Source of the DNA: Deltaproteobacteria bacterium | GTDB lineage: Bacteria; Desulfobacterota; Desulfobaccia; Desulfobaccales; 0-14-0-80-60-11 | Assembly (NCBI GenBank): GCA_023381945.1 | Contig: JAMCQY010000281.1 | Span: forward strand, 1 to 18,503 | Length of the DNA stretch: 18,503 bases | Direction of reading: 5' to 3' | Part shown: positions 318-15,323 of the stretch, piece by piece | Position numbering within the stretch: position 1 is the first letter of the stretch | Layout: every line of letters starts with the position of its first letter | Notes under the pieces: generated by a model | Told to the model about the DNA's origin: nothing | Database searches by the model: none | The model's input: the letters and a program-made list of their open reading frames with translations, nothing else | Position numbers and translations under genes: made by a program

Positions 318-572
318 ATGATCACTGAAATTCGGCTACAGGTGAAGGGCATGAAGCAACAAGGGGGCTTCACCTGAGCCGGTTGCCCTGACGCCGTGCG
401 CGCCGAACTGCTCCATCTGGCCGGCATGCTGGAGGTGAAGTATCACCCCGACCGGGACTTTTTCACGCTACGCTATGAATCCGTCCTGGTGACTACGCAA
501 AACATATACGCCGCAGTGGTCGCAGCCGGTAGAAAAATGGGGCGGGAGTATTTTCCTGAAGTCATTTCCTAA
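318..572 (+). CDS. Candidate selenoprotein: HMA-fold (MerP/CopZ-like) metal-binding protein with in-frame TGA
   Basis: Read through the TGA at 375-377, this is an 84-residue protein ending at TAA 570-572. An in-frame TAG lies directly before the ATG. The translation follows the heavy-metal-associated beta-alpha-beta-beta-alpha-beta pattern: strand EIRLQVKGM, the metal loop, helix DAVRAELLHLAGM, strands EVKYHPDRD and FTLRYES, helix TTQNIYAAVVAAG. In HMA proteins the loop is GMxCxxC; here it is GGFT-(UGA)-AGCPDAV, so the stop replaces the first Cys and the second Cys is kept, giving UxxC. Reading frame and fold continue uninterrupted on both sides. Downstream RNA can fold as GAGC 376-379 with GCUC 410-413 and GGUU 381-384 with AACU 406-409, with a small CGC/GCG cap around loop CGU (395-397), resembling the size and position of a bacterial SECIS. 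Oddities: five extra residues (KQQGG) before the motif and no well-spaced Shine-Dalgarno. The alternative is a pseudogene or sequencing error (TGC or TGT to TGA). Confidence 0.6.
375..413 (+). promoter_or_regulatory. Possible bacterial SECIS-like hairpin after in-frame TGA
   Basis: The segment starts at the in-frame TGA (375-377). GAGC (376-379) can pair with GCTC (410-413) and GGTT (381-384) with AACT (406-409, including one G-U), leaving C380 bulged. An inner CGC (392-394)/GCG (398-400) closes a CGT loop about 17 nt past the TGA. Bacterial SECIS elements are hairpins inside the coding region just after UGA with a G/U-containing apical loop at about this distance. I paired this by eye and calculated no energy; the central part is poorly paired, so support is modest. 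Confidence 0.35.
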
Positions 573-2019: not shown

Positions 2020-3915
2020 ATGGAAAAGAGTAAGGACGCGGCTTCCAGAGCCATGTTAAAAGCGGCGGAGCGCGGGGATTTAAGCACCATTTGGGACCGC
2101 TTTGCGGCCCAGACCCCGCAATGCGGCTTCGGCGAGTTAGGTACCTGTTGCCGCAACTGTCTTCAGGGACCCTGCCGTATTGACCCCTTCGGGGAGGGGG
2201 CTACAACGGGAGCCTGCGGCGCCTCGGCCGACACCATCGTCGCCCGCAACCTGGCGCGGGCTATTGCCGCCGGCACCGCCTCCCATTCCGGCCATGCCAA
2301 ACACCTGGCCCATACTTTGCTCAAATCCGCCACCGGCCGGGCTCCGGATTATCCCATCAAAGACGACGCCAAGCTCAAGGCGGTGGCCGGGCGTCTGGGC
2401 TTGGTTACCGAAGGCAAAACCACCACGGAAATTGCCAAGCTGGTGGCCGAAGCCGCGTTGGCCGACTTTTCCGAGAAGGAGTCCCCGGTGGCTTGGGCCG
2501 CCACCAACGTCACCCAAGGGCGGGTCGAGACCTTCCTCAAATTTGGCGTGGTGCCCACCGGCATCGACGCCGCGGTTTCGGAAGTCATGCACCGCACCCA
2601 TTACGGGGTGGACGCCGACCCGGTCAACCTCCTGCTGGGCGGAGTCAAGTGCGCCCTGGCGGATTTCGCCGGCTGCGCCATGGGCACCGATTTGGCCGAC
2701 GTCCTCTTCGGAACGCCCCAGCCGGTGGTCAGCCAGGCCAATTTAGGGGTGCTGAAGGCTGATGCCGTCAATATCGGCCTGCACGGCCACAGCCCCATCC
2801 TCTCTGACCTGATCGCCCAGGTGGCCCACGATCTGGACGCCGAAGCCAGGGCCGCGGGCGCAGCAGGAGGCATCAACCTGGTGGGCATCTGCTGCACCGG
2901 CAACGAGGTGCTTATGCGCCACGGCATCCCGTCGGCCACCCATTCGGTCTCCCAGGAACTGGCCATCGTCACCGGCGCCCTGGACGCCATGGTGGTGGAT
3001 TACCAGTGCATCATGCCTTCCCTGGCCCGACTGGCGGAATGCTTCCATACGAAGCTGATCACCACCATGCCCATCGCCAAGATCCCCGGCGCCGCCCACA
3101 TCGAATTCAGCGAAGAACGAGCCGGCCAGGCGGCCCGGGAGATTATCCGGCTGGGCATCGAAGCCTACAAGAAACGGGACCCCAAAAAGGTCAATATCCC
3201 CGACCAGCAGACGGAAGCCATGGCCGGGTTCTCCACCGAGGCCATTGTCGGGGCGCTCGCCCTCTTAAATAAGGAGGACCCTCTCAAACCGCTGATCGAC
3301 AATATCGTCGCCGGCAACATCTTGGGGGTGTGCCTGTTCGCCGGGTGCAATAATGTCCGGGTGCCCCAGGATGAGAATTTCCTGACCATGGCCAAGGCCC
3401 TGGCCCGTGAGAACGTGCTGATTCTGGCCACCGGCTGCGGGGCCGGGGCCTTTGCCCGCCACGGACTGCTGACCTCCGCGGCTACTAATGAATACGCCGG
3501 CGACGGCCTGAAGGCGGTGCTCACCGCCATCGGCCAGGCCGTGGGCCTGGCCGGACCCCTGCCGCTGGTGCTGCATATGGGTTCGTGCGTGGACAATACC
3601 CGGGCGGCCCAGGTGGCGGTGGCCGTGGCCAACAAGCTGGGCGTGGATCTGGACAAGCTCCCGGTGGTGGCCAGCGCCCCGGAGGCCACCACTGAAAAGG
3701 CTATCGCCATCGGCACCTGGGCGGTGGCTGCGGGTCTCCCCACTCACGTGGGGGTCGTCCCGCCGGTGCTGGGCAGCCCCCTGGTGGCGCAAGTGTTGAC
3801 CCAGGACGTCAAGGGCCTGTTCGGCGGCTATTTTATCGTCGATACCAACCCGGAAACCTCGGCCCAGAAGCTCATTGAGGCCATCCGGGAGAGAAGGGCA
3901 GGGCTGGGGCTATGA
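2020..3915 (+). CDS. cooS: Anaerobic Ni-Fe carbon monoxide dehydrogenase catalytic subunit
   Basis: 631 residues, the usual length of monofunctional CooS. It catalyses CO + H2O = CO2 + 2 e- + 2 H+ in the cytoplasm as a homodimer. All metal sites are visible: C35 and C43 for the inter-subunit D-cluster; C44, C47, C52 and C66 for the B-cluster [4Fe-4S]; and for the Ni-Fe C-cluster the HGH motif (255-257), C292 (CCTGNE), C330 (VDYQC), C443 (FAGCNN), C473 (ATGCGAG) and C523 (MGSCVDN). K560 (TTEKA) fits the catalytic lysine and H89 the proton-relay histidine region. Spacing between the C-cluster cysteines matches characterised enzymes, so it should be active. AGAGGA precedes the ATG by eight bases. 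The stop overlaps the cooF start (ATGA), showing translational coupling. No nickel-insertion gene cooC and no acetyl-CoA synthase gene lies in this window. Confidence 0.97.
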   Translation: MEKSKDAASRAMLKAAERGDLSTIWDRFAAQTPQCGFGELGTCCRNCLQGPCRIDPFGEGATTGACGASADTIVARNLARAIAAGTASHSGHAKHLAHTLLKSATGRAPDYPIKDDAKLKAVAGRLGLVTEGKTTTEIAKLVAEAALADFSEKESPVAWAATNVTQGRVETFLKFGVVPTGIDAAVSEVMHRTHYGVDADPVNLLLGGVKCALADFAGCAMGTDLADVLFGTPQPVVSQANLGVLKADAVNIGLHGHSPILSDLIAQVAHDLDAEARAAGAAGGINLVGICCTGNEVLMRHGIPSATHSVSQELAIVTGALDAMVVDYQCIMPSLARLAECFHTKLITTMPIAKIPGAAHIEFSEERAGQAAREIIRLGIEAYKKRDPKKVNIPDQQTEAMAGFSTEAIVGALALLNKEDPLKPLIDNIVAGNILGVCLFAGCNNVRVPQDENFLTMAKALARENVLILATGCGAGAFARHGLLTSAATNEYAGDGLKAVLTAIGQAVGLAGPLPLVLHMGSCVDNTRAAQVAVAVANKLGVDLDKLPVVASAPEATTEKAIAIGTWAVAAGLPTHVGVVPPVLGSPLVAQVLTQDVKGLFGGYFIVDTNPETSAQKLIEAIRERRAGLGL

Positions 3916-4403
3916 AAGAGATCTTCGTCCGCCTGGACCGCTGCCAGGGCTGCCGCAGTTGCCAATTGGCTTGCGCCGTAGCCCATTCCCAATCCAAGAA
4001 CCTGTTCGGGGCGGTTGCTGAGAGCCCACCCCCGGGCTACCGCATCTATATCGAGCGGGGTGATGGCGTCAACGTGCCCCTCACCTGCCGCCACTGCGAC
4101 CCGGCCCCCTGCCTGGAGGCCTGCATCGCCGGCGCTCTCTATCGCGATGAGCACGGCCTGGTGCGCCGCCGCAAAGACAATTGCGTAGGCTGCTGGACCT
4201 GCATGATGGTCTGCCCTTATGGCGTGGTGAGCCGGGCCAAAGACCGCAAGATCGCGGTGAAATGCGACCGCTGCCATAAACTGGACATACCCGCCTGCGT
4301 CCAGGCCTGCCCCACCAAGGCCTTGGTGTTCGCCGAGGCCGGGAGTTTTGGGGCGGAAATCCGGAAAAATGTGGCCGGGATAATCACTGGTGGAAAGGGA
4401 TAA
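3912..4403 (+). CDS. cooF: CooF-type polyferredoxin, electron-transfer partner of CO dehydrogenase
   Basis: 163-residue iron-sulfur protein with sixteen cysteines in four groups, enough for four [4Fe-4S] clusters: C11/14/17/21, C59/62/67/71, C91/94/97/101 and C118/121/129/133. The layout, including CRHCDPAPCLEAC and CDRCHKLDIPACVQAC, is that of the CooF/HycB/DmsB ferredoxin family. It has no signal peptide, so it is cytoplasmic and would take electrons from the B/D clusters of CooS. The ATG overlaps the cooS stop by four bases, which strongly supports a shared mRNA and a shared complex. The likely downstream acceptor is the flavoprotein encoded next. No hydrogenase (Ech/Coo type) genes are present here, so H2 evolution cannot be claimed from this locus. 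Confidence 0.95.
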   Translation: MKEIFVRLDRCQGCRSCQLACAVAHSQSKNLFGAVAESPPPGYRIYIERGDGVNVPLTCRHCDPAPCLEACIAGALYRDEHGLVRRRKDNCVGCWTCMMVCPYGVVSRAKDRKIAVKCDRCHKLDIPACVQACPTKALVFAEAGSFGAEIRKNVAGIITGGKG

Positions 4404-4521
4404 AAGGGTAAAGCAAAAGGAAAATGGGCGAACGGGAAAGGGAATAGGAATAGTTTGCGGCTTGTCTTTACGCCTTTGCGTCTTTGCGTGAAATATCTTT
4501 TCCTCTCTAAAAGGAAAGTCT
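4404..4521. repeat. Purine-rich spacer with a short TTTGCGT tandem repeat
   Basis: After the cooF stop, about 50 bases are nearly all purine (roughly 4404-4453). Then follows a tandem TTTGCGT element (cctttgcgtctttgcgtg, about 4472-4489) of the kind often seen as a degenerate repeat between bacterial genes. AAGGAAAG shortly before the ATG at 4522 provides the ribosome-binding site of the next gene. No terminator hairpin is evident, so read-through from cooSF to the oxidoreductase is plausible. Confidence 0.35.
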
Positions 4522-5760
4522 ATGCGTTACGTTATCATCGGTAACGGCGCCGCGGGCAATGCTGCCGCGGCGGCTATCCGGAAGCAAGACCCAGGCGGCG
4601 AGGTGCTGATCTTCAGCGATGAGCCGGCGCCGGCCTATTACCGGCCTCTGATTGTCAATCTTATTGAGGATATCCATAAGGATATCTTTGTCCCGCAAGA
4701 ACTGAACATGAAAGCCGCCACCGGGCAAACGGTGATGGCCCTTGATGCCGGCGCTAAACGGCTCACCTTCCTGGATGGGGCAACCTGCACTTATGACCGG
4801 CTGCTGCTGGCCACCGGCGCCTCGGCCATTATCCCCGACCTCCCCGGTTTGCAAGGCCATGGGACCTTTGTCTTGCGCACCTTGGCTGACGCTGAGACCC
4901 TGGCCCAAGCCGCGGGAGAGGCCAAGGAGGCCCTGGTCATCGGCGCCGGCCGCGTCGGGTTGAAGGCGGCGATGGCCCTGCGTCAGCGCAATCTTTCCGT
5001 GACCATCGTGGAGCAGGGGCCGGGCCCGGCCCCCATGCAGTTCGACCAGGAGGCCGGCGGCATATTGTCTGAGGCCCTGGCCGCCCAAGGTTTTAATCTG
5101 CTCTTCGGCCAAACGGTGGCCGAAGTGCAGCGGGCCGGTGACCGGCTCATCGGTGCAATCCTGGCGGATGGCCGGAAACTTCCAGCGCAAGTGATCGTGG
5201 CCGCGGTGGGGGTGCGTCCCAAGGTGGAGTTGGCCCAAGCGGCCGGCCTAACGGTTAAGCAGGGAATTGTGGTGGACCGGCACCTGCGCACCAGTGCCCC
5301 GGAAATCTACGCCGCCGGCGACGTGGCCGAGACCACCGACCTGGTTACCGGACACTCCCTGGTGAGCGGCCTCTGGACCAATGCGGTGGAGATGGGCCGC
5401 ATCGCCGGCCGTAATATGGCCGGGGGCCATCAGGAATACCAAGGGGCCTGGGGGGTACTGAACGCCCTGGAGGTGGCCGGCATCCCCACCGTGGCCGTGG
5501 GCCTCACCACCCCGCCGCTGGACGCCGGCTACCAGGTCCTGCGCCGCCGCCGGGGGAATAACTACCGCAAGCTGGTCTGTAAGGATGGAATCCTGGTGGG
5601 CGCCCTCCTGTTGGGCGCCCTTGACGGCGCCGGGGTCTATGCCGGCCTCATCCGGAGCCGCACCCGGATCAATGATCTGGCGGCGGCCCTGGACCAACCA
5701 CGGCGGGGTCTGGCCTCCCGGCTCGCCGCGATTATTAACCAAAGGCAGTTAAACATGTAG
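4522..5760 (+). CDS. CO-dehydrogenase-associated FAD-dependent NAD(P) oxidoreductase
   Basis: 412-residue flavoprotein of the pyridine nucleotide-disulfide oxidoreductase (Pyr_redox_2) superfamily, of the NADH oxidase/rubredoxin reductase-like group. It has an N-terminal FAD Rossmann motif GNGAAG (7-12), ATGAS (97-101), a second Rossmann motif GAGRVG (141-146) for NAD(P)H, and the FAD ribityl-contact motif YAAGDVAE (263-270). No redox-active CxxC disulfide is seen, arguing against a thioredoxin- or lipoamide-reductase role. Linked cooS-cooF-flavoprotein sets are known in CO-using anaerobes, where this protein is thought to move electrons from CooF to NAD(P)+. That role is inferred here from position. 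A 118-bp gap separates it from cooF, so it may be cotranscribed or have its own promoter. The exact acceptor (NAD+, NADP+ or O2/peroxide detoxification) is not determined by the sequence. Confidence 0.85.
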   Translation: MRYVIIGNGAAGNAAAAAIRKQDPGGEVLIFSDEPAPAYYRPLIVNLIEDIHKDIFVPQELNMKAATGQTVMALDAGAKRLTFLDGATCTYDRLLLATGASAIIPDLPGLQGHGTFVLRTLADAETLAQAAGEAKEALVIGAGRVGLKAAMALRQRNLSVTIVEQGPGPAPMQFDQEAGGILSEALAAQGFNLLFGQTVAEVQRAGDRLIGAILADGRKLPAQVIVAAVGVRPKVELAQAAGLTVKQGIVVDRHLRTSAPEIYAAGDVAETTDLVTGHSLVSGLWTNAVEMGRIAGRNMAGGHQEYQGAWGVLNALEVAGIPTVAVGLTTPPLDAGYQVLRRRRGNNYRKLVCKDGILVGALLLGALDGAGVYAGLIRSRTRINDLAAALDQPRRGLASRLAAIINQRQLNM

Positions 5761-5926: not shown

Positions 5927-7342
5927 TCAATCCCCGGCGCGTTTTTCTTCAATATACTCACCTTCGGCATTTACCGACCAGGGGTCGACATTCTCCCCCA
6001 GCATGGCTCGCGCCGCCAGTATGCCGGTTAGCATGGAGTGATCCATATTATTGTAGCGAAACTGCCCATACCTGCCGATGCAGTAAAGATTGGAGAATTG
6101 GGCCAGCCAGTCTTTGATCAGGCCCAGGTGTTTTTCGTAGCCGTCTTCATACATGGGGTAAGCCTTGGCATAACGGACCACGAAACCATCGAGAAAGTCT
6201 TCCTGATTATAGAACTTCAAGTGGGACTGGTCTTGCCGGGCGATGTTAATGAGTTCCGAATCTGCTGAGTTCCAAAGGGCATCCCCTTCGAAACAGAAGT
6301 ATTCGAAGCCGGCGGAACTGGTCCCGGCGCGAGGCACCATGGCCGGACTCCAATTCTCGTAAAGCTGTAAACGGCCGGCCGTGACTTCCGGACTATGAAG
6401 ATAGATCCAGTTATCCGGCAGGGTGGTTTTCGTCTTAAACAGCAGATTAACCGTGATGATGGAGCGGTATCTCAAGTTCCGGGCCGCCGTAAGCACCGCT
6501 TCCGGCGGCCGGGGAGACATCCTGAGGACCAATTCGCTGATGGGCATACTGGAAAAACAGTGCGAGCACGATGTCAGTTGATCATGGCCCCTACCGCGGG
6601 TGAGCACTTCCGTTACCTTACCCTGAGTATGCCGGACCTCGACCACCTCCTGATCCCGGCGGATTTCTCCCCCGTTGCTGCTTAGGCGCCGGCACATGTC
6701 TTCGTACATCTGGCCGGGCCCCAGGCGGGGATAATGAAAGCTGTCGATGAGGCTGGCAACCTTGCCGCGGTTTTGTAACCCCATGGCGTTTATCAAGGCC
6801 CGGCCCAGGGAGAGATTGCGGATCCGCTGGGCCGCCCAATCAGCACTGAGCGTGGTGCAGGAAATACCCCAGACCTTCTCCGTGTAAGTTTTAAAGAAAA
6901 TGTTGAACAGGATTTTGCCAAATCGGTTGGAGACCCAGTCAGCAAAACTCACTTCGGGTTTGACCGGAAAAGCCCGGGCTTTCAGATAACTCAATACGAT
7001 TTTGCTGGATACCAAAGGTCCCAGCCCGCTTAAAGCGTTGCCGACCCGCAGCGGGTAGTAGAAAAATTTGCCCCGGTAATAGATGCGAGACAACCGTTGG
7101 CGTACCAAAAAATCGGCGGGCAGAGTCTGTTCCCACAGGGCCTGGATTTCCTTATTCTTCGTAAAGAACCGGTGTCCGCCGATATCACAGCGGAACCCCT
7201 TGTATTTCACCGTCTTGCAAAGCCCGCCCATCTGCTGGTCTTTTTCTAACAGCAGGCAGGGAAGCCGGCGTTCCGCCAAAGCGTGAGCCGCGGAGATACC
7301 CGCCGGTCCGCCGCCGATGATCACGGGTCTCAGATCGGACAT
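5927..7342 (-). CDS. FAD-dependent amine-oxidase / UDP-galactopyranose-mutase-like oxidoreductase
   Basis: 471-residue FAD enzyme. The dinucleotide motif IIGGGPAGISAA (8-19) with E33 at the end of strand 2, the GGLCKT loop (39-44) and GGHRFF (55-60) place it with the NAD(P)-binding amine oxidase family that includes protoporphyrinogen oxidase, phytoene desaturase and UDP-galactopyranose mutase. The C-terminal IGRYGQFRYNNMDHSM with TGILAARAML matches the FAD-binding closing segment of mutase-like members. It is longer than classical bacterial UDP-galactopyranose mutase (about 370-390 residues), so that reaction is not assured; related proteins often sit in polysaccharide gene clusters, but here no glycosyltransferase is adjacent. 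The ATG at 7340-7342 is chosen because GGAG lies eight bases before it; the GTG two codons upstream would be too close. It is monocistronic, with its own terminator. Confidence 0.75.
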   Translation of the reverse strand: MSDLRPVIIGGGPAGISAAHALAERRLPCLLLEKDQQMGGLCKTVKYKGFRCDIGGHRFFTKNKEIQALWEQTLPADFLVRQRLSRIYYRGKFFYYPLRVGNALSGLGPLVSSKIVLSYLKARAFPVKPEVSFADWVSNRFGKILFNIFFKTYTEKVWGISCTTLSADWAAQRIRNLSLGRALINAMGLQNRGKVASLIDSFHYPRLGPGQMYEDMCRRLSSNGGEIRRDQEVVEVRHTQGKVTEVLTRGRGHDQLTSCSHCFSSMPISELVLRMSPRPPEAVLTAARNLRYRSIITVNLLFKTKTTLPDNWIYLHSPEVTAGRLQLYENWSPAMVPRAGTSSAGFEYFCFEGDALWNSADSELINIARQDQSHLKFYNQEDFLDGFVVRYAKAYPMYEDGYEKHLGLIKDWLAQFSNLYCIGRYGQFRYNNMDHSMLTGILAARAMLGENVDPWSVNAEGEYIEEKRAGD

Positions 7343-8031
7343 GCACACTTCTCCATAGTCACCGGACTAACTGATTCCCACTAGCGGCTAGATTTCAAAA
7401 TTCTATCTGGAGATTTGCTCAATATTCATCTTCTGCGCCACTATCCAAGTCGATTACTTTTTTACAATGTTATCACAAAATATTCCAATCCTTAATTTAA
7501 CCGCAGCGGGATTTTTTCAGGAAAGGCGGCCGGTGAAGGTCCCTGATAATATCGGGACGGATTAATTGCCGGTAAGAATCAAAGATAAAAGTTTACTAAA
7601 CAATCAAGCTCAATTTAGTGGACATATTCAAAGCCTAAAAAAAACGAGATAATCGAAGCCATTCACCTTTGGAACGTAACTGGATGATATTTCCGGCCTA
7701 AACAACAACGGTCGGTCTGAACTTGGCCCGGTCAGGGGCGTTTCTTGGATTGGAATTTTTTCTCTTGGGACCTTTACCTATTAATAAATTCAGGGTTCTC
7801 GAAGGTGAAAATCAGGACAACCCTGATTTACCTTCCCATCCAGATAACCCATATTAGCCTCACAAGCATAAGATAGCCCCATGGAACCAAAAATTCGAGA
7901 AGGGAGGATAGGGTCAAATATTAAACAAAAGAAAAGCCACGGCAAGGACAGAAGTTAGGCTGATCACCCTTAAAAGAAAAAGAAGATTTAAACAATCGGA
8001 GCCCACTTAAAAATACTTGCAAGGGGATATA
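7343..8031. other. Long non-coding region upstream of the Flp pilin genes
   Basis: Almost 690 bases without a convincing reading frame on either strand and visibly richer in A/T than its surroundings. It contains a dyad at 7539-7558 (GTCCC...GGGAC with an inner GAT/ATC), a much stronger one at 7801-7835, and the Shine-Dalgarno AAGGGG (8021-8026) of the first pilin. I found no good sigma-70 or sigma-54 promoter by eye, no tRNA and no recognised riboswitch. It serves both as promoter region for the divergent minus-strand gene and as long leader or regulatory region for the pilus operon. Confidence 0.5.
7801..7835. promoter_or_regulatory. Strong 14-bp inverted repeat upstream of the pilin genes
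   Basis: GAAGGT (7801-7806) pairs with ACCTTC (7830-7835), and AAATCAGG (7809-7816) with CCTGATTT (7822-7829), around loop ACAAC; only GA (7807-7808) is unpaired. This is the longest perfect pairing in the region and lies about 200 bp before the first pilin ATG. It could be an operator, an RNA hairpin in a long pilin leader, or an end point for the upstream transcript. No T run follows on the plus strand. Confidence 0.5.
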
Positions 8032-8208
8032 ATGAACGCTCTGAGAAATTTCGTAAAAGACGAATCCGGCGCCAGCGCGGTGGAATATGGTCTGTTGGTT
8101 GCTCTGATCGCCGTGGTCATTATGGGTGCCGTTACCACACTCGGTACGACTATCAAAGGCATGTTTGAAAATGTGACCACCCAGATCAATAGCGCCACTG
8201 CTAGCTAA
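8032..8208 (+). CDS. flp: Flp-type (type IVb) prepilin, copy 1
   Basis: 58 residues, the usual size of Flp major pilins. A 13-residue leader MNALRNFVKDESG is cut by prepilin peptidase after the Gly; the mature protein starts ASAVEYG, with the Glu and Tyr at +5/+6 that define the Flp family, then a continuous hydrophobic helix (LLVALIAVVIMGAV). It would be inserted in the inner membrane, trimmed by TadV and polymerised by TadA/B/C. AAGGGG precedes the ATG; an in-frame TTG at 8017 would lengthen the leader without support. It is nearly identical to the copy at 8349, differing in only four residues near the C-terminus (E/T, T/N, A/G and one further position at most), so one arose from the other by recent duplication. 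Confidence 0.93.
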   Translation: MNALRNFVKDESGASAVEYGLLVALIAVVIMGAVTTLGTTIKGMFENVTTQINSATAS

Positions 8209-8224
8209 GCCGGCCTGGCCCTTT

Positions 8225-8239
8225 GAGGCTAACCGCCTC
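8225..8239 (+). other. Small hairpin after pilin copy 1
   Basis: GAGGC (8225-8229) pairs with GCCTC (8235-8239) around TAACC, 17 nt past the pilin stop. The same stem with loop TGACC recurs after the second pilin at 8542-8556. Retention in both copies suggests a role in processing or stabilising abundant pilin mRNA, though a recent duplication alone could explain it. Confidence 0.4.
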
Positions 8240-8269
8240 CCTGAAATTAAAGGGAACATAGTCTTGAAT

Positions 8270-8305
8270 ATGCTGTTAGGTTCTTTTAAGGATGAAGCCG
8301 GTTGA
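8270..8305 (+). pseudogene. Truncated remnant of a second-type Flp prepilin (leader only)
   Basis: ATG 8270 opens a frame reading MLLGSFKDEAG and then TGA. It closely matches the first eleven residues of the pilin at 8583 (MLVGFFKDETG), and the bases before it (TTGAATATGCTG) match too. The remnant ends exactly at the Gly where prepilin peptidase would cut, so only the leader peptide is left. What follows aligns instead with the leader region of pilin copy 1 (CTTAAAAATAC), marking the joint of a tandem duplication. If translated it would yield a lone 11-residue peptide; it is probably non-functional. Confidence 0.7.
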
Positions 8306-8348
8306 AAAATCAATCAGAACTCGCCTTAAAAATACGTAGGAGGAAATG

Positions 8349-8525
8349 ATGAACGCTCTGAGAAATTTCGTAAAAGACGAATCCGGTGCCAGCGCGGTGG
8401 AATATGGTCTGTTGGTTGCTCTGATTGCCGTGGTCATTATGGGTGCCGTTACCACATTGGGTACGACTATCAAAGGCATGTTTACCAATGTGACCAACCA
8501 GATCAATAGTGCCACTGGCAGTTAA
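8349..8525 (+). CDS. flp: Flp-type (type IVb) prepilin, copy 2
   Basis: 58 residues with the same leader, cleavage site (ESG before ASAVEYG) and hydrophobic helix as copy 1. It differs only toward the C-terminus (MFTNVTNQINSATGS against MFENVTTQINSATAS). The DNA is almost identical across the first 45 codons, with a few synonymous changes such as GGT/GGC and ATT/ATC. It has a better ribosome site than copy 1: AGGAGG at 8338-8343, five bases before the ATG at 8349 (an overlapping ATG at 8346 is less likely). The surface-exposed C-terminal part is where the two copies have begun to diverge, as would be expected if the fibre exterior is under varied selection. Confidence 0.93.
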   Translation: MNALRNFVKDESGASAVEYGLLVALIAVVIMGAVTTLGTTIKGMFTNVTNQINSATGS

Positions 8526-8541
8526 TCCAGCCGGGCCCTTT

Positions 8542-8556
8542 GAGGCTGACCGCCTC
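8542..8556 (+). other. Small hairpin after pilin copy 2
   Basis: GAGGC (8542-8546) pairs with GCCTC (8552-8556) around TGACC, the second occurrence of the stem found at 8225-8239. The flanking bases (CCCTTTGAGGCT and CCGCCTCC) are also shared between the two copies. Confidence 0.4.
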
Positions 8557-8582
8557 CAAGAAATTAGGGAAAACCCTTGAAT

Positions 8583-8753
8583 ATGCTGGTAGGTTTTTTC
8601 AAGGATGAAACCGGCGCCGGCGTTTTGGAGTATGCCTTTCTGATATCCCTGATTGCCGTGGTCGTCATGTGGGCAATCTCGGGTTTGAGTATCACTGTGT
8701 CAACCATGTATAACAACATTGCCAATACGATAACATCCACCACGGGTTCCTGA
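8583..8753 (+). CDS. Divergent Flp-type prepilin or minor pilin
   Basis: 56 residues: leader MLVGFFKDETG, predicted cut after the Gly, mature start AGVLEYAFLISL with the Glu-Tyr pair at +5/+6, then a hydrophobic stretch and a polar tail rich in Thr, Ser and Asn. The Flp signature is intact, but the sequence is clearly different from the two main pilins, including a Trp in the helix (VVMWAI). A minor or adaptor pilin, or an alternative major subunit, is possible. There is no strong Shine-Dalgarno immediately before the ATG; GGGAAAACC lies upstream, so translation may be weaker than for the other two. A truncated relative of this gene lies at 8270-8305. Confidence 0.88.
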   Translation: MLVGFFKDETGAGVLEYAFLISLIAVVVMWAISGLSITVSTMYNNIANTITSTTGS

Positions 8754-8790
8754 CCCTGGTACTGGCAGTTACAAGAGGGGGGCGAACGCC

Positions 8791-8874
8791 ATGGAAACCT
8801 CGCTACTGTTGCAGTTGCTGGCGGTTACGGTCTTAATCGGCATGGCCTCCCACTACATTAAAAGACTCGTATGA
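8791..8874 (+). CDS. Possible 27-residue single-helix membrane peptide
   Basis: ATG 8791 to TGA 8872-8874, beginning METSLLLQLLAVTV and ending HYIKRLV. Purine-rich GAGGGGGG lies about 7-12 bases before the ATG, a usable ribosome site. The composition is one hydrophobic helix with a basic C-terminus, typical of small inner-membrane proteins. There is no Flp cleavage motif, so it is not a pilin. It lies between the pilins and the prepilin peptidase gene. I do not recognise a family, and short chance frames of this kind are common. Confidence 0.35.
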   Translation: METSLLLQLLAVTVLIGMASHYIKRLV

Positions 8875-8911
8875 ATTCAGGGAGAAATCCCTGGATGGGA
8901 AAGAATTACCG

Positions 8912-8953
8912 GGGATGGGAGCGAAGATATTTGGAAAATCATCGCTCCCACCC
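8912..8953 (+). other. Long hairpin between pilin genes and tadV
   Basis: GGG (8912-8914) and TGGGAGCGA (8916-8924) pair with TCGCTCCCACCC (8942-8953), with A8915 bulged and a 17-nt loop. Twelve GC-rich pairs make this a very stable RNA structure. No T run follows; instead there is a TTGCAATT direct repeat and then the ribosome site AAGGAG of tadV. It is well placed to separate highly expressed pilin mRNA from the less abundant assembly-gene mRNA by partial termination, processing or protection of the 3' end. Confidence 0.5.
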
Positions 8954-8984
8954 TGCAATTGTTGCAATTATAAGGAGATCATAG

Positions 8985-9515
8985 TTGCAAGCTTATTGGC
9001 CCGCGGCCCAGACTTGGGTCGCCTCTCATGAGAACCTGATCTTCCCTCTACTGATAGCGGTCTGGATCTCATGGAGCGATTTGAGGACCAGGAAAATTCC
9101 CAATTACCTCACCCTGGGCGCTGCCCTGGCTGGTCTGCTTTACAATCTGGCCGTCTCCGGGCTGAGTGGTGTAACCTCCGGTCTCCTGGGTTTGTTTCTG
9201 GGTTTCGGGTTTTTGATTCTGCCATATATCTTGGGGGGGATGGGGGCTGGCGACGTCAAGGCCCTGGCAGCCCTGGGAGCCTGGCTGGGGCCGTTCGGCA
9301 CCCTGTGCCTCTTTATCTATATGGCCGTCGCCGGAGGGCTCATGGCCCTGGGAGTCCTGCTCTGGAAAGGGCTTCTTTGGCAAAACTTCCTTAATGTGAT
9401 CCTCTGCCGGGATAAATTATCGGCTTTATTGCCAGCTCAGAAAACCCCGGGTATTCCTTATGGGGTGGCTATGGCCCTTGGCATGTTTGCCTTATTAATG
9501 ATCGGGGGTATCTGA
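8985..9515 (+). CDS. tadV: TadV/CpaA-type prepilin peptidase
   Basis: 176-residue multi-pass membrane aspartic protease of the A24 family, the short version lacking the N-terminal methyltransferase domain, as in TadV/CpaA. The two catalytic aspartates are visible: D32 in WSDLRTRKIPN and D90 in the GMGAGDVK motif. The C-terminus carries the typical GIPYGVAMALG. It should cut the Flp prepilins after their leader Gly. The start is TTG at 8985: AAGGAG lies seven bases upstream, and the N-terminus so obtained fits a periplasmic lead-in followed by the first helix. Confidence 0.93.
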   Translation: MQAYWPAAQTWVASHENLIFPLLIAVWISWSDLRTRKIPNYLTLGAALAGLLYNLAVSGLSGVTSGLLGLFLGFGFLILPYILGGMGAGDVKALAALGAWLGPFGTLCLFIYMAVAGGLMALGVLLWKGLLWQNFLNVILCRDKLSALLPAQKTPGIPYGVAMALGMFALLMIGGI

Positions 9516-9594
9516 AGGATGTGTCTGGGAAGGATTAACTGGTCCAACTTTACTACCCGGTTTGAATAACCTGACCGTTACGGTCTAAACCACC

Positions 9595-10431
9595 ATGGAT
9601 TTTAGAGTGAGAGTTATGCTGAACCTACCCAAAGGAGTTTCTTATATCTTTATTGCGGTGGTGGCAGGTCTTCTGGCAACCATTGGTATCCGCAGCTACG
9701 TCGCCCGTAAGACTTATGTTGCTCCCATAGCCACCGGCCAAGTGGTTGTGGCCACTGCCGAAGTTTCTCCGGGCAATGCCCTGAACGGCGCCGCTCTTAA
9801 GGTGGCGACCTGGCCCAAAGAGCTGATCCCGCCACAGGCTGCTTCCGCTTTGAATCAGGTGGATGGCCGGGTGGTCATAAGCCCCATCTCCAGCGGGGAG
9901 CCTATCTTGTTAAGCAAGCTGGCCCCGGTGGGCACCGCCGCCGGCTTGAGCAGTTTGATGGAAGAGAACAAGCGGGCTTTTACGATCCGGGTCGATGATG
10001 TTTCGGGAGTGGCCGGCTTTCTTCATCCCGGGGACAAAGTGGACGTCCTGGCGGATGTGAAGGTAAAAGGCCTTGATGAGAACTTCTCTAAAACCATCTT
10101 GCAAAACATCAAAGTCTTGAGCACCGGTCAGATCTGGGAACAAAAGGGAGCCGACGCCAAACCGACGGTGGTGAATACCGTCACCTTGGAATTGAACCCT
10201 CATCAATCCGAGGTCATGAATCTCGCCAGCAATGAAGGGAAGATTCGCCTGGTCCTCCGAGGCCGCCGCAATGACACCATTGTGGAGACCGAAGGGGTGG
10301 CCATGTCGACCCTTTTTGGCGTTGCCAAAAAAGAAGACCCCACGCCTGTTGCGGCTGAGAAAGAGGTGAAAAAAGAGGAGCGCACTGTGGAGGTGATCAA
10401 AGGCATGGAGCGTTCCAAAAACAATCTCTAG
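9595..10431 (+). CDS. cpaB: Flp pilus assembly protein CpaB/RcpC
   Basis: 278 residues: one N-terminal membrane helix (about 17-34), a SAF domain (about 44-110, VAPIATGQVVVATAEVSPG and DGRVVISPISSGEPIL), then the RcpC/CpaB domain (about 125-240, AFTIRVDDVSGVAGFLHPGDKVDVL through LRGRRNDT), and a charged Lys/Glu-rich tail. It is a periplasmic Tad component that works with the outer-membrane secretin. The start is uncertain: the ATG at 9595 has no Shine-Dalgarno and is preceded by a small hairpin (GACCG/CGGTC, 9573-9585), whereas the in-frame ATG at 9616 has GAGTGAGAG just before it. Downstream, where Tad loci normally carry the secretin gene rcpA/cpaC, there is only a 272-bp gap. Confidence 0.9.
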   Translation: MDFRVRVMLNLPKGVSYIFIAVVAGLLATIGIRSYVARKTYVAPIATGQVVVATAEVSPGNALNGAALKVATWPKELIPPQAASALNQVDGRVVISPISSGEPILLSKLAPVGTAAGLSSLMEENKRAFTIRVDDVSGVAGFLHPGDKVDVLADVKVKGLDENFSKTILQNIKVLSTGQIWEQKGADAKPTVVNTVTLELNPHQSEVMNLASNEGKIRLVLRGRRNDTIVETEGVAMSTLFGVAKKEDPTPVAAEKEVKKEERTVEVIKGMERSKNNL

Positions 10432-10703
10432 AAGCAACGCCTCACAAAGAACCGCCGGCCGCACTCAGTTAAATCAGGATCACGGAACGGCGTAATCGGA
10501 GATGGCGTTCTCGGTGCGATTCAATTAACTCAGAGGTTTGAGCGGACTATAGGCTTGAAAACGGCAGAACACTTCTGGTATTTTGCAATTACGGCCCTGT
10601 CCCTGCCGATAGCTTGGAGCATTGGGTCTAAGGGCCCCAAAAAAAATTCCGACCGATCTGCGTTATTTGATTAACCTGGTAGAGTCCGCCAAGGGAGTGA
10701 AAG
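10432..10703. other. Gap at the usual secretin position in the Tad locus
   Basis: 272 bases between cpaB and tadZ without a recognisable remnant of rcpA/cpaC. It contains a small frame at 10555-10674 and ends with AGGGAG, the ribosome site for tadZ. No terminator hairpin was seen. Confidence 0.4.
10555..10674 (+). CDS. Possible 39-residue hydrophobic micro-protein (TTG start)
   Basis: TTG 10555 to TAA 10672-10674 gives MKTAEHFWYF, then a hydrophobic stretch AITALSLPIAW, then a basic tail SKGPKKNSDR. This has the outline of a one-helix membrane protein. There is no convincing Shine-Dalgarno, the start is non-ATG, and I recognise no family, so it may be a chance frame. Confidence 0.22.
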   Translation: MKTAEHFWYFAITALSLPIAWSIGSKGPKKNSDRSALFD

Positions 10704-11897
10704 GTGCAGTCTGAAAACTTGACCATTTCAGTACTGTTCGGGACTGGCGTCCAACGGCCAGAGATCCAAAAGGTTTTGGAAAGCCTCCCCCAACTGAAAT
10801 TGGTGGAACAGACATGCGATCCCAAGAATTACTGCAGCCGGCACCAGGGAAGTTGGCCGGATTTGGTCCTGGTGGAGATGGATGGGGAAAATACCATTCC
10901 AGCCTGGTTAGAAAAACTCCCTCAAGACCTGCCGAAGACCCCGGTGTTGCTCTGTTCTCATAACCGTGAACCGGAGTTTCTGATCAGAGCCATGCAGGTG
11001 GGGATCAGAGAATTCCTGCCGCTTCCGATGAACCTCGTCGATTTGGAAGCCGCGGTACGCCGGGTCTGGTTGTCCCGAAGGCGCTTCCATTCCGAGGAAA
11101 AAGCCGAAGGGCAGGTGGTCGTGGTCACCGGACACAAAGGCGGTTCGGGAAGCACCACGGTGGCGGTTAATCTGGCCGTGGCCCTGTCGGAAGTGACTAC
11201 GAGCAACCTGGCTCTGGTGGATTTGGGCAGGCCCTTTCCAGACGTGGGAAATTTTCTGGATGTGGACCCAAATTATACCGTCCTCGATTTAGCCCAGAAC
11301 TTGGCCGACCTGGATCATTCTTTCTTGCAGCGGATCATGCAACCTTATGGAAATAACCTCTTCATTTTGCATGGCATTCAGGATTTCCGCGAACAAGAGA
11401 GTATCGAACTGGAGGCCGTAAACAAGATCTTCAAGCTACTGCGCAGCCTTTACCGATATATCATCGTTGATCTGAGCCACTGGCTGGACGAGTTCTTCCT
11501 GCAAGTGGTCATGGAAGCAGACTTAGTGCTGATGCTCACCGGACTCACTGTCCCGGATCTGCGCAATCTGAAGAGGATGTGGCCATCGTTGTTGGAATGG
11601 TACCCCGAGAGGCGAAAAATCAAACTGGTGGTCAACCGGTTTGACCGCGCCAACGGCTTGCAGTTGAAGGATTTGGAACAGCTGCTCCAACAGAATGTCT
11701 TTGCTACCCTGTCTAGTGATTATTTCACCATGATGGAAACACTGAACCGGGGTACGCCTCTGGGCCTCACGGCGCCGCGCGGCAAGCTCTGGAAGGGCCT
11801 GAAATCCCTGGCTGAACAAGTAAAACGGGAACTGCCGGGCGATGCCGAAGAACTGGCCCTGGATGTTTCAGCCAAGCGCAGGTTTTGGTTTTTTTAA
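10704..11897 (+). CDS. tadZ: Tad pilus localisation ATPase-like protein TadZ/CpaE
   Basis: 397 residues. The N-terminal ~125 residues form a receiver-like domain without a normal phospho-acceptor (the expected Asp position reads VEMD, with E58); the C-terminal part is a ParA/MinD-type P-loop domain. The P-loop is GHKGGSGSTT (143-152): the signature lysine of the deviant Walker A motif is present, but the lysine before the Thr pair is Ser, a change often seen in TadZ/CpaE proteins. Family members mark the cell pole and recruit the rest of the Tad machine. GTG at 10704 follows AGGGAG with good spacing. The tadA ribosome site overlaps its stop, so they are co-translated. Confidence 0.9.
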   Translation: MQSENLTISVLFGTGVQRPEIQKVLESLPQLKLVEQTCDPKNYCSRHQGSWPDLVLVEMDGENTIPAWLEKLPQDLPKTPVLLCSHNREPEFLIRAMQVGIREFLPLPMNLVDLEAAVRRVWLSRRRFHSEEKAEGQVVVVTGHKGGSGSTTVAVNLAVALSEVTTSNLALVDLGRPFPDVGNFLDVDPNYTVLDLAQNLADLDHSFLQRIMQPYGNNLFILHGIQDFREQESIELEAVNKIFKLLRSLYRYIIVDLSHWLDEFFLQVVMEADLVLMLTGLTVPDLRNLKRMWPSLLEWYPERRKIKLVVNRFDRANGLQLKDLEQLLQQNVFATLSSDYFTMMETLNRGTPLGLTAPRGKLWKGLKSLAEQVKRELPGDAEELALDVSAKRRFWFF

Positions 11898-11911
11898 GGG
11901 AGTGAACTTCT

Positions 11912-13339
11912 GTGAGTTGGATGGGTTATAAGAAAGATAAGAAAGGGATAAGTCTGGTTAAACCGCCGGGCCCAGGAAGGCCTGCGGTCAAGCCGCCGTC
12001 GGTTCAAGAACCCGCTGAACCGAAGGTGGTGCAAGTTCCCAGGAAGGACGCAGCTCGGGAAGCCAAACTTTACGAAGTCAAGCAAAAGATCCACCATGTG
12101 CTGCTGGAACGGTTGGACCTGAGCGCCCTGGAGGAATTGGACGAGCAGGTGCGCGCCCGGGAGATCCGGCAAGCCCTGGGGATGCTCCTCTCGGAAGAAG
12201 AAGAGCCCCTTAACATGGGGGAGAAGAACCGCCTGGCCCGGGAACTGGAATTTGAAATCCTGGGTCTGGGTCCCCTGGAGCCCCTCTTGGAGGATCCCAC
12301 CATCTCAGATATTTTGGTCAACCGCCATGATCAGGTTTACGTTGAACGGCGGGGCGTCCTGGAACAAGCGGATATTAGGTTTCAGGACAATGACCATCTG
12401 CTCAAAATTATTAATAAGATCGTCAGCAATGTCGGGCGCCGCGTCGACGAATCTGTGCCCATGGTGGACGCCCGTCTCCCTGACGGCTCCCGGGTCAACG
12501 CCATTATTCCTCCCCTGGCTCTGGACGGGCCCATGCTCTGTATTCGGCGGTTCTCCGTCTCCCGGCCCTCGCTGGAGGATTTGATCGAGAAAGGCAGCCT
12601 CACCGCCCAGATCGGCGAGGTTCTGAAGGCCATCGCGGTGGCAAAGTTGAATGTCATCATCTCCGGCGGCACCGGTTCCGGCAAGACCACCATGCTCAAC
12701 ATCCTCTCCGGGTTTATTCCCTCCCGGGAACGCATTATCACCATTGAGGACTCCGCCGAACTCCAACTGCAACAAGAGCACGTCTGCCGCCTGGAAACCC
12801 GGCCGGCCAACGTCGAGGGGAGAGGAGAAATTACCGCCCGGGACCTGGTGAAGAACTGCCTGCGGATGCGGCCGGACCGGGTGGTCGTCGGCGAGGTGCG
12901 CGGCGCCGAGGTTATTGACATGCTCCAAGCCATGAATACCGGCCATGAGGGCTCCATGACCACCATCCACGCCAACACCGCCCGGGACGCAATGCTGCGG
13001 CTGGAAACCATGATTTCTCTTTCGGGCATCACCATCCAGGAGAAGGCCATGCGCCAGATGATCTCCTCCTCAGTTAATGTGGTCATTCAATTGGTCCGCC
13101 ACAGCGACGGCGGCCGCCGCATGATCTCCCTCTCCGAGATAACCGGCATGGAAAGCGGCGTCATCAGCATGCAGGATATTTTCGTCTTCGAGCGTCACGG
13201 CATGAATGAACAGGGCATGATTATGGGACGCTTTGTGGCTACCGGGGTTCGTCCCAGGTTCGCAGAGCGCTGCCGCCTATTCGGGGCGCCACTCTTAGAT
13301 GGGATCTTCAACCCCCCACCCCGCCCCATCGGCGGCTAA
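11912..13339 (+). CDS. tadA: Tad secretion/assembly ATPase TadA (CpaF)
   Basis: 475-residue type II/IV secretion ATPase of the TadA/CpaF group. After a basic, Pro-rich linker (1-50) comes an N-terminal helical domain, then the RecA core: Walker A GGTGSGKT (252-259), Asp box ITIEDS (276-281), Walker B RVVVGEVRG (323-331) and His box GHEGSMTTIHAN (344-355). All catalytic motifs are intact. It is a cytoplasmic hexamer that powers Flp polymerisation through TadB/TadC. GTG at 11912 is used, with AAGGGAG nine bases upstream; an ATG three codons on is a less likely start. The short Pro-rich C-terminus (FNPPPRPIGG) is unremarkable. Confidence 0.95.
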   Translation: MSWMGYKKDKKGISLVKPPGPGRPAVKPPSVQEPAEPKVVQVPRKDAAREAKLYEVKQKIHHVLLERLDLSALEELDEQVRAREIRQALGMLLSEEEEPLNMGEKNRLARELEFEILGLGPLEPLLEDPTISDILVNRHDQVYVERRGVLEQADIRFQDNDHLLKIINKIVSNVGRRVDESVPMVDARLPDGSRVNAIIPPLALDGPMLCIRRFSVSRPSLEDLIEKGSLTAQIGEVLKAIAVAKLNVIISGGTGSGKTTMLNILSGFIPSRERIITIEDSAELQLQQEHVCRLETRPANVEGRGEITARDLVKNCLRMRPDRVVVGEVRGAEVIDMLQAMNTGHEGSMTTIHANTARDAMLRLETMISLSGITIQEKAMRQMISSSVNVVIQLVRHSDGGRRMISLSEITGMESGVISMQDIFVFERHGMNEQGMIMGRFVATGVRPRFAERCRLFGAPLLDGIFNPPPRPIGG

Positions 13340-13369
13340 GGGCCAACGACCTGCCTAAGGAGAAGCAAA

Positions 13370-14371
13370 ATGGCGCAAAAAAGCCTGTTTAGTATGGGCG
13401 GTCTGGATTTTATGTTGGTCATAGGACTTGTCGGAGCTTTTGTGGGGGTTTGCTTTCTGGTCACTTACATCAATTTATCAGTAGTCGAACCCTACCGCCA
13501 GAGGCGGCTGATCCAAAAGCGGCTCAGGAGCAATAAGAGGGAACAGGAGTTCCGAGCCCAAATTTTCAAAGCGTATCAGGACACGCGCCATAGCCCGGTT
13601 TTAACCATTTTGAATAAATTGACCGGCTGGGGCAAGGTTGAAAACCTGCAGCGCCTGCTCCTCCAGGCCGATATCTATCTGTCTCCGGGCGTCTTTGTTT
13701 GCGCCATCGGCATCCTGGGTTGTCTGGGTTTTATTATCGGATTGCAGATAGGCGGATTATGGTCCTGGGGTTCGGGGGCCTTCATGGGGTTCCTGCCCAT
13801 CTTCATCTTACGCTGGAAAAAGAAGCGCAAGACGGCGAAGTTTGAGAAACAGATGCCGGAAGCCATGGAACTCCTGGCCCGGTCGTTGCGGGCCGGGCAT
13901 ACATTGCAGTCGACTCTCGAGTTGGTGTCCAATGAAATTCCCGCGCCTCTTGGTAAGGAGATGCGCGTCACTTATGAGGAGCAGCGCCTGGGGCTGAGTG
14001 TTTCCCAGGCCCTGCGGCGCATGTCGGACCGGGTGGCCAGCCAGGATCTGCGCTACTTCGTGACCGCGGTCTTGATCCAGGCTGAGACTGGCGGCAATCT
14101 CGCGGAAATTTTGGAAAATATCGGCACCCTTATCCGGGATCGGCTGAAACTGAAAGGCAAGATTGTGGCCCTGACGGCAGAAGGCCGTTTTTCAGCCTTG
14201 GTCTTGATCGGCCTGCCTATCCTTACCTTCCTGGTCCTTTATTTGATCAACCGGGAATATATCATGGTGCTTCTGACGGACCCCATAGGCACCAAGATTT
14301 TGACCGCCGGCATCTGCCTGGTCATCTTAGGAGCCTTGATAATGAAAAAAATGATCGCTATCAAGGTTTGA
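13370..14371 (+). CDS. tadB: Tad inner-membrane platform protein TadB
   Basis: 333 residues of the T2SSF (GspF-like) family. There is a helix at about 13-36, two helices at 105-148, a cytoplasmic T2SSF domain (about 160-270, KQMPEAMELLARSLRAGHTLQSTL and ETGGNLAEIL), and two C-terminal helices (about 272-293 and 307-328). TAAGGAG precedes the ATG by about seven bases. It pairs with TadC, encoded 10 bp downstream, to form the platform that couples TadA to pilin assembly. Confidence 0.93.
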   Translation: MAQKSLFSMGGLDFMLVIGLVGAFVGVCFLVTYINLSVVEPYRQRRLIQKRLRSNKREQEFRAQIFKAYQDTRHSPVLTILNKLTGWGKVENLQRLLLQADIYLSPGVFVCAIGILGCLGFIIGLQIGGLWSWGSGAFMGFLPIFILRWKKKRKTAKFEKQMPEAMELLARSLRAGHTLQSTLELVSNEIPAPLGKEMRVTYEEQRLGLSVSQALRRMSDRVASQDLRYFVTAVLIQAETGGNLAEILENIGTLIRDRLKLKGKIVALTAEGRFSALVLIGLPILTFLVLYLINREYIMVLLTDPIGTKILTAGICLVILGALIMKKMIAIKV

Positions 14372-14381
14372 GGAGAAGTCA

Positions 14382-15323
14382 ATGGTAGGCCTAGACTTGC
14401 TCATCTGGATAGGCACATTTCTAGCCGGGACCTGTCTGGTTTATGGCGTCATGCACTATGTCGGCAGCCGGCGGCTGCTTAAAAACCGGTTCAGAAGAGC
14501 AACGGAAAAGGCGATGCCCCTTTATCAGGGCGGCGGCAACGACACCCCGATGAAACGTTTCCTCGAATGGGTCTCATCTTTCGGCAAATTTGGCATGAAG
14601 GATAAAGAAGGGGCCACGAAGCTCAGGTTTGCCTTGCTGCAAGCCGGTTTTCGGCATCCCCAAAGCACTGCCATCTTTTATGGCCTTCAGGCCCTGACGG
14701 GCTTTTTTCTGCCCTTGCCGTATTTGCTGCTCAACCTCATGAATGGCACGATGGCCGCCGGCAGCCTGGCGATTACCTTCCTGCTGGCGGGGGGAGGATT
14801 TTATCTGCCCCAATACATTCTGAAGTTCATGACTTCCCGGCGCCAGGACCGGATCGATAAGGCTCTGCCCGACGTCTTGGACCTGCTCATCGTCTTGCTG
14901 GAAGCCGGGCTTTCCTTGCAATCGACGCTCAACCGGGTGTCAGACGAGGTGCGCCCCATTTCCATGGAACTCTACCATGAATTGCATCTCACCAACGCTG
15001 AACTGCGCACCGGGATTACCCGGGAAACCGCCCTAAAGAATATGGGGGAGCGTACCGGGGTGCAAAGCGTCAAATCCCTGGTCGGCATGATGATCCAATC
15101 GGAAAAGATGGGCACCAGCATGTCCCAGGCATTACGCATTCATTCCAACTTTCTCCGGGTGCAACGAGCCCAGAAGGCTGAGGCGATAGCCGCCAAATTG
15201 CCCGTGAAAATCATGTTCCCCATGATGGCTTTTATTTTTCCGGCGATCTTCATCGTGGTCTTAGGACCGGCTGCTATTAATTTGCTGCGCAGTTCTTTTT
15301 TCGCGGTGGCCGGAGGCCACTAA
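14382..15323 (+). CDS. tadC: Tad inner-membrane platform protein TadC
   Basis: 313 residues, the second GspF-like platform protein. There is an N-terminal helix (about 4-26), a central hydrophobic pair (about 95-147), a T2SSF domain (about 155-265, DKALPDVLDLLIVLLEAGLS and SEKMGTSMSQALR) and a C-terminal helix pair (275-303). GAGGAG precedes the ATG. It is the last Tad gene in the cluster: tadD, tadE/F and tadG, which often follow, are absent, and a hairpin follows at about 15408. Confidence 0.93.
   Translation: MVGLDLLIWIGTFLAGTCLVYGVMHYVGSRRLLKNRFRRATEKAMPLYQGGGNDTPMKRFLEWVSSFGKFGMKDKEGATKLRFALLQAGFRHPQSTAIFYGLQALTGFFLPLPYLLLNLMNGTMAAGSLAITFLLAGGGFYLPQYILKFMTSRRQDRIDKALPDVLDLLIVLLEAGLSLQSTLNRVSDEVRPISMELYHELHLTNAELRTGITRETALKNMGERTGVQSVKSLVGMMIQSEKMGTSMSQALRIHSNFLRVQRAQKAEAIAAKLPVKIMFPMMAFIFPAIFIVVLGPAAINLLRSSFFAVAGGH

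Follow-up and report, generated by a model that had tools for sequence, protein, structure and literature searches.

Whether a reading frame interrupted by a single TGA is a broken gene or encodes a selenoprotein is the question raised by a short gene in the window, the whole 18,503-nucleotide stretch of DNA analysed here. Read through the TGA, the frame at 318–569 translates as MITEIRLQVKGMKQQGGFT-U-AGCPDAVR...FPEVIS, with the TGA at 375–377 its sole internal stop and a TAA at 570–572 as terminator (Table 1). The original prediction placed this TGA exactly at the first Cys of a CxxC metal site, with the second Cys kept, and this is borne out by the frame, by Cys23 (TGC) and by comparison of a family profile with PDB sequences, in which residues 20 and 23 align with the first and second Cys of GMTCxxC in the solved CopA and ATP7B domains. 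The metal loop of the window protein is UxxC, with TGA replacing the first ligand. It is very probable that 318–572 encodes a real selenoprotein, a reading favoured by a conserved TGA, the lack of any Cys form among the copies seen, the selenocysteine (Sec) machinery of relatives, constraint on synonymous sites and a confidently predicted HMA fold.

Table 1. Features of the proposed selenoprotein gene (positions in the window).
Feature	Position	Strand	Basis
Read-through gene, very probable HMA-fold selenoprotein, 84 residues plus TAA stop (570–572)	318..572	+	Translation with TGA as U; 23 relatives; AlphaFold, Foldseek
TGA, proposed selenocysteine codon, residue 20, first metal ligand	375..377	+	Same column TGA in 23 of 23 relatives
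TGC, Cys23, second metal ligand; TGA in two G087 copies	384..386	+	Translation, alignment
KQQGG, extra loop residues ahead of the metal motif	354..368	+	Alignment A2; model loop between strand 2–10 and helix 23–32
58-residue database piece P0002, start GTG 396, downstream of TGA	396..572	+	Protein database entry
Proposed SECIS hairpin: stem 389–394 with 400–405, one A-C mismatch, one U-G pair, loop 395–399	389..405	+	Frozen synonymous bases 392, 401, 404

Relatives' genomes were reached through the CO dehydrogenase of the window and searched in six-frame translations that continued through stop codons. In 395 genomes sampled from G002's phylum, a search with the read-through protein recovered 15 close relatives, spread over 14 genomes. 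Thirteen of these copies have a single TGA and two, both from G087, have two; eight weak matches without a TGA had E values of 1.4e-5 and above, seven of them in frames of 249–925 codons and one in a frame of 82. A family profile from alignment A2, which like the fold prediction was built on 16 of the 24 rows, was applied to at most 13 candidates per genome and returned the same 15 copies, each with TGA and each scoring at least 101.9 bits; after a clear gap came eight matches at 36.3 bits or less, none with TGA. The class of G365 added to these, with the gene in 19 of 29 genomes (20 copies, one TGA each). The total is 23 copies in 21 genomes, spanning that one class and two genomes outside it, and all 23 TGAs lie in the window's column. 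Homologues with either Cys or U at residue 20 had been proposed as a check on the prediction: TGA occupies the first-ligand column in 23 of the 23 copies and Cys in none, and the relatives are otherwise intact. The motif around the TGA is GGF-[T/V]-U-x-[G/A]-[C/U]-P-D (with V for the second G of GGF in one member, and D for the first G in one); 21 of the 23 copies have UxxC, while the two from G087 carry a second TGA and read UxGU.

Other searches gave little. A contig scan of genomes with the window protein as query found no relatives, and a scan of viral contigs with CooS found none. The window protein had only weak matches in two of 10 anchor genomes and in three of 55 genomes of G001's class, one of which (L082) was judged a stray match after inspection of its sequence.

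In protein databases the gene is present mainly in pieces, as gene finders usually cut it short at the TGA. When 5.8 billion proteins were searched with a profile, 142 matched at E <= 1e-3; of the 120 matches listed, 109 begin downstream of the TGA, including the window's own 58-residue piece, which on our reading is a mis-call. The other 11 span the site and all have W there, as a gene call with TGA as Trp would yield, none has C, and in four of them the second ligand site is W as well, which parallels the UxGU copies of G087. Many of the fragments among the matches listed are named copper chaperone CopZ, and two bear the source names Desulfobaccales and Desulfobacterales, a hint at lineage only. 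In one relative, P0049, the N-terminus is extended by a hydrophobic, lipoprotein-like segment and both ligand sites are W; this is perhaps an exported UxGU form.

Purifying selection acts on both flanks of the TGA. Across 22 of the 24 rows, using pairs with usable dS, median NG86 dN/dS was 0.19 upstream (13 codons, 116 pairs) and 0.37 downstream (60 codons, 174 pairs); between the window and its nearest relative, L087, dN and dS were 0.14 and 1.43 before the TGA, and 0.19 and 0.87 after it. Since all 23 relatives, from 21 genomes, share the column and selection operates on either side, the TGA at the Cys site is beyond chance.

The original prediction also held that the HMA fold continues past the TGA, and structural modelling agrees with it. 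An AlphaFold model from 16 sequences, with Cys standing in for Sec, reached a pLDDT of 92.7 and a pTM of 0.82, and its top Foldseek match was MerP (1osd, E 2.9e-6, TM 0.79), followed by copper domains. Together with the profile, this predicts the beta-alpha-beta-beta-alpha-beta HMA fold, with both ligands in the first loop and the KQQGG insert in the loop from strand 1 to the metal motif. The insert had been said to set the protein apart from ordinary MerP and CopZ, and rightly so, as neither has it. The window scores below the gathering score of PF00403 (HMA) (13.9 against 24.8 bits), and all 16 family members match that family at E <= 1 (best 1.8e-7).

Sec-containing HMA or MerP-like proteins are already in print. 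Known Sec proteins in the portions of PMC13188914 and PMC9312934 drawn on here include the UxxU protein of NF041115, a UxxC cation ATPase, a putative mercuric transport selenoprotein and a Sec-type arsenite methyltransferase, and a table of the Global Ocean Sampling survey (PMC2398784) reports an HMA-fold MerP selenoprotein, counted there as two sequences and likened here by description, the motif being absent from the table passage. Among the closest known families is NF041115 (UxxU_metal_bind), likewise HMA-like with Sec in the metal loop and, as in the G087 copies, two TGAs. All 16 members match it weakly (best E 1.9e-7), but against a cut-off of 95 the window scores 18.8 bits, and none of 14 genomes had any match over the cut-off; the present family also differs in its xQQGGF loop and its predominant UxxC. 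MerP (1osd, 1afi) shares the fold and the position of both ligands but has CxxC, no loop insert and 19% identity. CopZ (NF033795) is the window's best NCBIfam match at 24.5 bits, far under the cut-off of 91, and has Cys and no insert, while MerTP (NF033556) is matched at 22.8 bits, below its cut-off of 180. NF045683, the MerT/CopZ fusion-like heavy metal transport selenoprotein, is according to NCBIfam a Sec protein with a CopZ-like part, but it is matched by one of the 16 members (E 0.037) and the present family has no MerT part. The claim of a new selenoprotein therefore holds for the subfamily and not for the kind: Sec-containing HMA proteins being known, the present group is an unnamed, apparently Sec-only subfamily, of which the titles and abstracts of the open-licence PMC papers searched hold no description.

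A bacterial selenoprotein gene would need a SECIS element close to its UGA, and the bases that follow the TGA are constrained in a manner that favours one. Counting the T of TGA as base 1, the proposed hairpin occupies bases 15–31, with its loop at 21–25. In the 20 of 24 rows used for the synonymous-site test (L167 and the diverged L099, L100 and L108 being left out), Asp at +5 is GAC in 20 of 20 cases against 36 of 67 elsewhere in the same genes, Arg at +8 is CGC in 18 of 18 (29 of 97 elsewhere) and Ala at +9 is GCC in 18 of 19 (66 of 135 elsewhere). For each, none of 2000 simulations was as low, in a simulation that ignores relatedness; among the 28 synonymous columns tested the next lowest was Leu at +18 (P 0.007). 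The frozen third bases, 18, 27 and 30, are all paired within the proposed hairpin, as a SECIS hairpin would need.

The original prediction spoke of a Cys-position TGA followed at once by a hairpin-capable segment; the TGA site stands, but the stability of the segment is ordinary. Over the 42 nt from the TGA there was no extra stability relative to synonymous shuffles (mean z -0.27, n=23; L167 was left out of this test and of the TGA-column count, its TGA being confirmed in place separately). Nor was pair covariation beyond shuffles found in this region, which hardly varies; RNAalifold chose a different 3-bp stem rather than the proposed hairpin, and Rfam gave no match in the window at gathering score. 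The bSECIS model, as set out in the portion of PMC13188914 used here, calls for a 3–9 nt loop, a 4–16 bp upper stem, a G in the first two loop positions and 16–37 nt spacing. The window hairpin fits it in loop length, early-loop G and a 17-nt spacing, but its upper stem, 3 bp, a mismatch and then 2 bp, is shorter than the model requires.

The machinery for decoding is present in the relatives. SelB was over cut-off in all 14 gene-carrying genomes tested first, compared with two of 14 named genomes as control, and tRNA-Sec in 13 of 14, compared with five of 14, with ARAGORN in agreement. Within G365's class SelB was over cut-off in 28 of 29 genomes, including all 10 that lack the gene, and being near-universal there its co-occurrence with the gene does not discriminate. 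The one genome in the class without SelB, G442, carries the gene, as does G399, which has no tRNA-Sec over cut-off; both may be incomplete drafts.

Against this background two other readings of the TGA can be weighed. Were it a true stop, the locus could be a pseudogene or the result of a sequencing error, or it could encode a shorter protein starting after the TGA, as most of the database entries listed have it, and the folding energies lend a SECIS element no support. Yet every copy has the TGA and no other stop, the codons upstream are under purifying selection too, a start beyond the TGA would drop the first strand of the predicted fold, and the codon directly after the window's TGA is GCC, not a start codon; this reading is very improbable. 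Reassignment of TGA to Trp would account for the W in the 11 site-spanning proteins among the matches listed, but TGA terminates other genes of the window (2020–3915, 5927–7348 and 13370–14371) and several relatives' copies of the read-through gene itself, HMA domains have a Cys ligand in this column, and the tRNA with a tca anticodon in relatives' genomes is tRNA-Sec, leaving this the most improbable explanation of all. The pseudogene, downstream-start and Trp readings were accordingly rejected, given the TGA in 23 of 23 copies, the selection upstream of it and the TGAs that end other genes, in favour of a selenoprotein.

What such a protein might bind is suggested by its gene neighbourhoods. 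In 24 stretches (the window and 23 copies), recurrent neighbours are an ArsM-type methyltransferase, CcdA, thioredoxin and Acr3, and further an ArsE-type thioredoxin, lipoamide dehydrogenase and an ArsP-type permease, each cluster being named from one representative. Some neighbouring ORFs are antisense artefacts, one of which, in L199, masks an arsM seen in the genome-wide ArsM search. That search gave 13 matches over cut-off in 12 of 21 genomes, and seven of these are encoded on the gene's own strand at a distance of ~60 to 2,200 bases (G444, G443, G442, G447, G445, G287 and G446); arsM is thus within 3 kb on the same strand in seven of 23 copies, where random placement, which ignores relatedness, would give 0.024. 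Five of 20 Acr3 matches share the gene's strand and lie up to ~5.3 kb away; one of the five, in G399, has no ArsM nearby and brings arsenic-gene linkage to eight of 23 copies. In a tree of the 24 rows, few forks of which are well supported, all eight fall within one 11-row branch (support 94/90), which also holds the window, G365 (on a 6.3-kb contig) and G327 (adjoining an ArsE-type thioredoxin gene). Further ArsM copies, in G446, G365, G087, G287, G067 and others, have one in-frame TGA, matching the known Sec-type arsenite methyltransferase. In G087 (L151:1486-2050, C122), the gene of the UxGU member adjoins that of a MerP-like protein which has the motif UPAU and begins with what resembles a signal peptide; each of the two genes has two in-frame TGAs.

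The original prediction was of a soft-metal chaperone or trap for Hg, Cu, Ag or similar. A soft-metal role would follow from the fold, but the relatives' neighbourhoods favour arsenic, which is the leading predicted ligand at only just short of an even chance. That the protein instead binds Cu(I), Hg(II) or another soft metal, with its arsenic neighbours incidental, is quite possible, if somewhat below even chances: fold and profile matches are to MerP, CopZ and copper ATPase domains, the UPAU protein beside a G087 copy is MerP-like, and no ars genes were seen beside the window's copy, or beside 15 of the 23 relatives in the stretches viewed, a point that weighs on the arsenic account together with the kinship of the eight linked copies. 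Against it, the linkage to arsM, and to acr3 in an eighth copy, is far above random placement, and among the representatives scanned none of the recurrent neighbours could be recognised as a mer or copper export gene. It is unlikely that the Sec-Cys pair forms a thiol-selenol redox centre and not a metal site; genes for CcdA/DsbD, thioredoxin and ArsE-type thioredoxin recur near several copies, and the literature gives UxxC as a motif of several redox selenoproteins, but the predicted fold is HMA and not thioredoxin.

The account that emerges is of a small selenoprotein of the HMA (MerP/CopZ) fold, made from 318–572, in which UGA codon 20 would be read as selenocysteine by tRNA-Sec and SelB, aided by the proposed hairpin, which spans nt 15–31 counted from the first base of the UGA. 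On the metal loop, Sec20 and Cys23 would pair as selenolate and thiolate and hold a soft metal or metalloid, for which As(III) or methylated As(III) is the best guess from the relatives' gene neighbourhoods, and the cargo might be passed to ArsM or to efflux of the Acr3/ArsP type. The computations themselves show the conserved TGA, the selection on both its flanks, the predicted fold, the relatives' Sec machinery and the arsenic-gene linkage of eight of the 23 copies; Sec insertion, the role of the hairpin, the metal and the partner are what we infer, and with them a role as chaperone for arsenic or a soft metalloid. Taken whole, from Sec20/Cys23 and SelB/hairpin decoding to As(III)-type cargo for ArsM or Acr3/ArsP, the account is likely. 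A more tentative idea, and on balance a doubtful one, is that the subfamily has no Cys form and acts alongside ArsM and Acr3/ArsP as a dedicated selenolate-thiolate chaperone, with As(III) or methylated As(III) as its cargo.

If the subfamily is indeed Sec-only, it would point to a hidden class of such proteins, since methods based on Cys homologues may miss them. By the account of deep-Sep in the part of PMC12013277 consulted, selenoproteins lacking Cys homologues may be misidentified by that method, for which the present family therefore offers a concrete test case. If arsenic is bound, selenium use would be tied to arsenic detoxification through a chaperone, and U/C and C/C metal sites could be compared on a small and well-studied fold.

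In the rest of the window, the surroundings of the gene comprise an aldo-keto reductase-like gene, a PAS-like fragment recognised by eye, and a CO dehydrogenase cluster (2020–5760) of CooS (TIGR01702, 732.8 bits), a CooF-like ferredoxin and an FAD oxidoreductase. Genes of Flp/Tad pilus type, recognised by eye, occupy 8017–15323, with apparent tandem pilin genes near 8017–8208 and 8285–8480, judged from near-identical antisense ORFs. At 15449–16918 a single protein combines an N-terminal receiver, a PAS domain and a histidine kinase, an unusual domain order.
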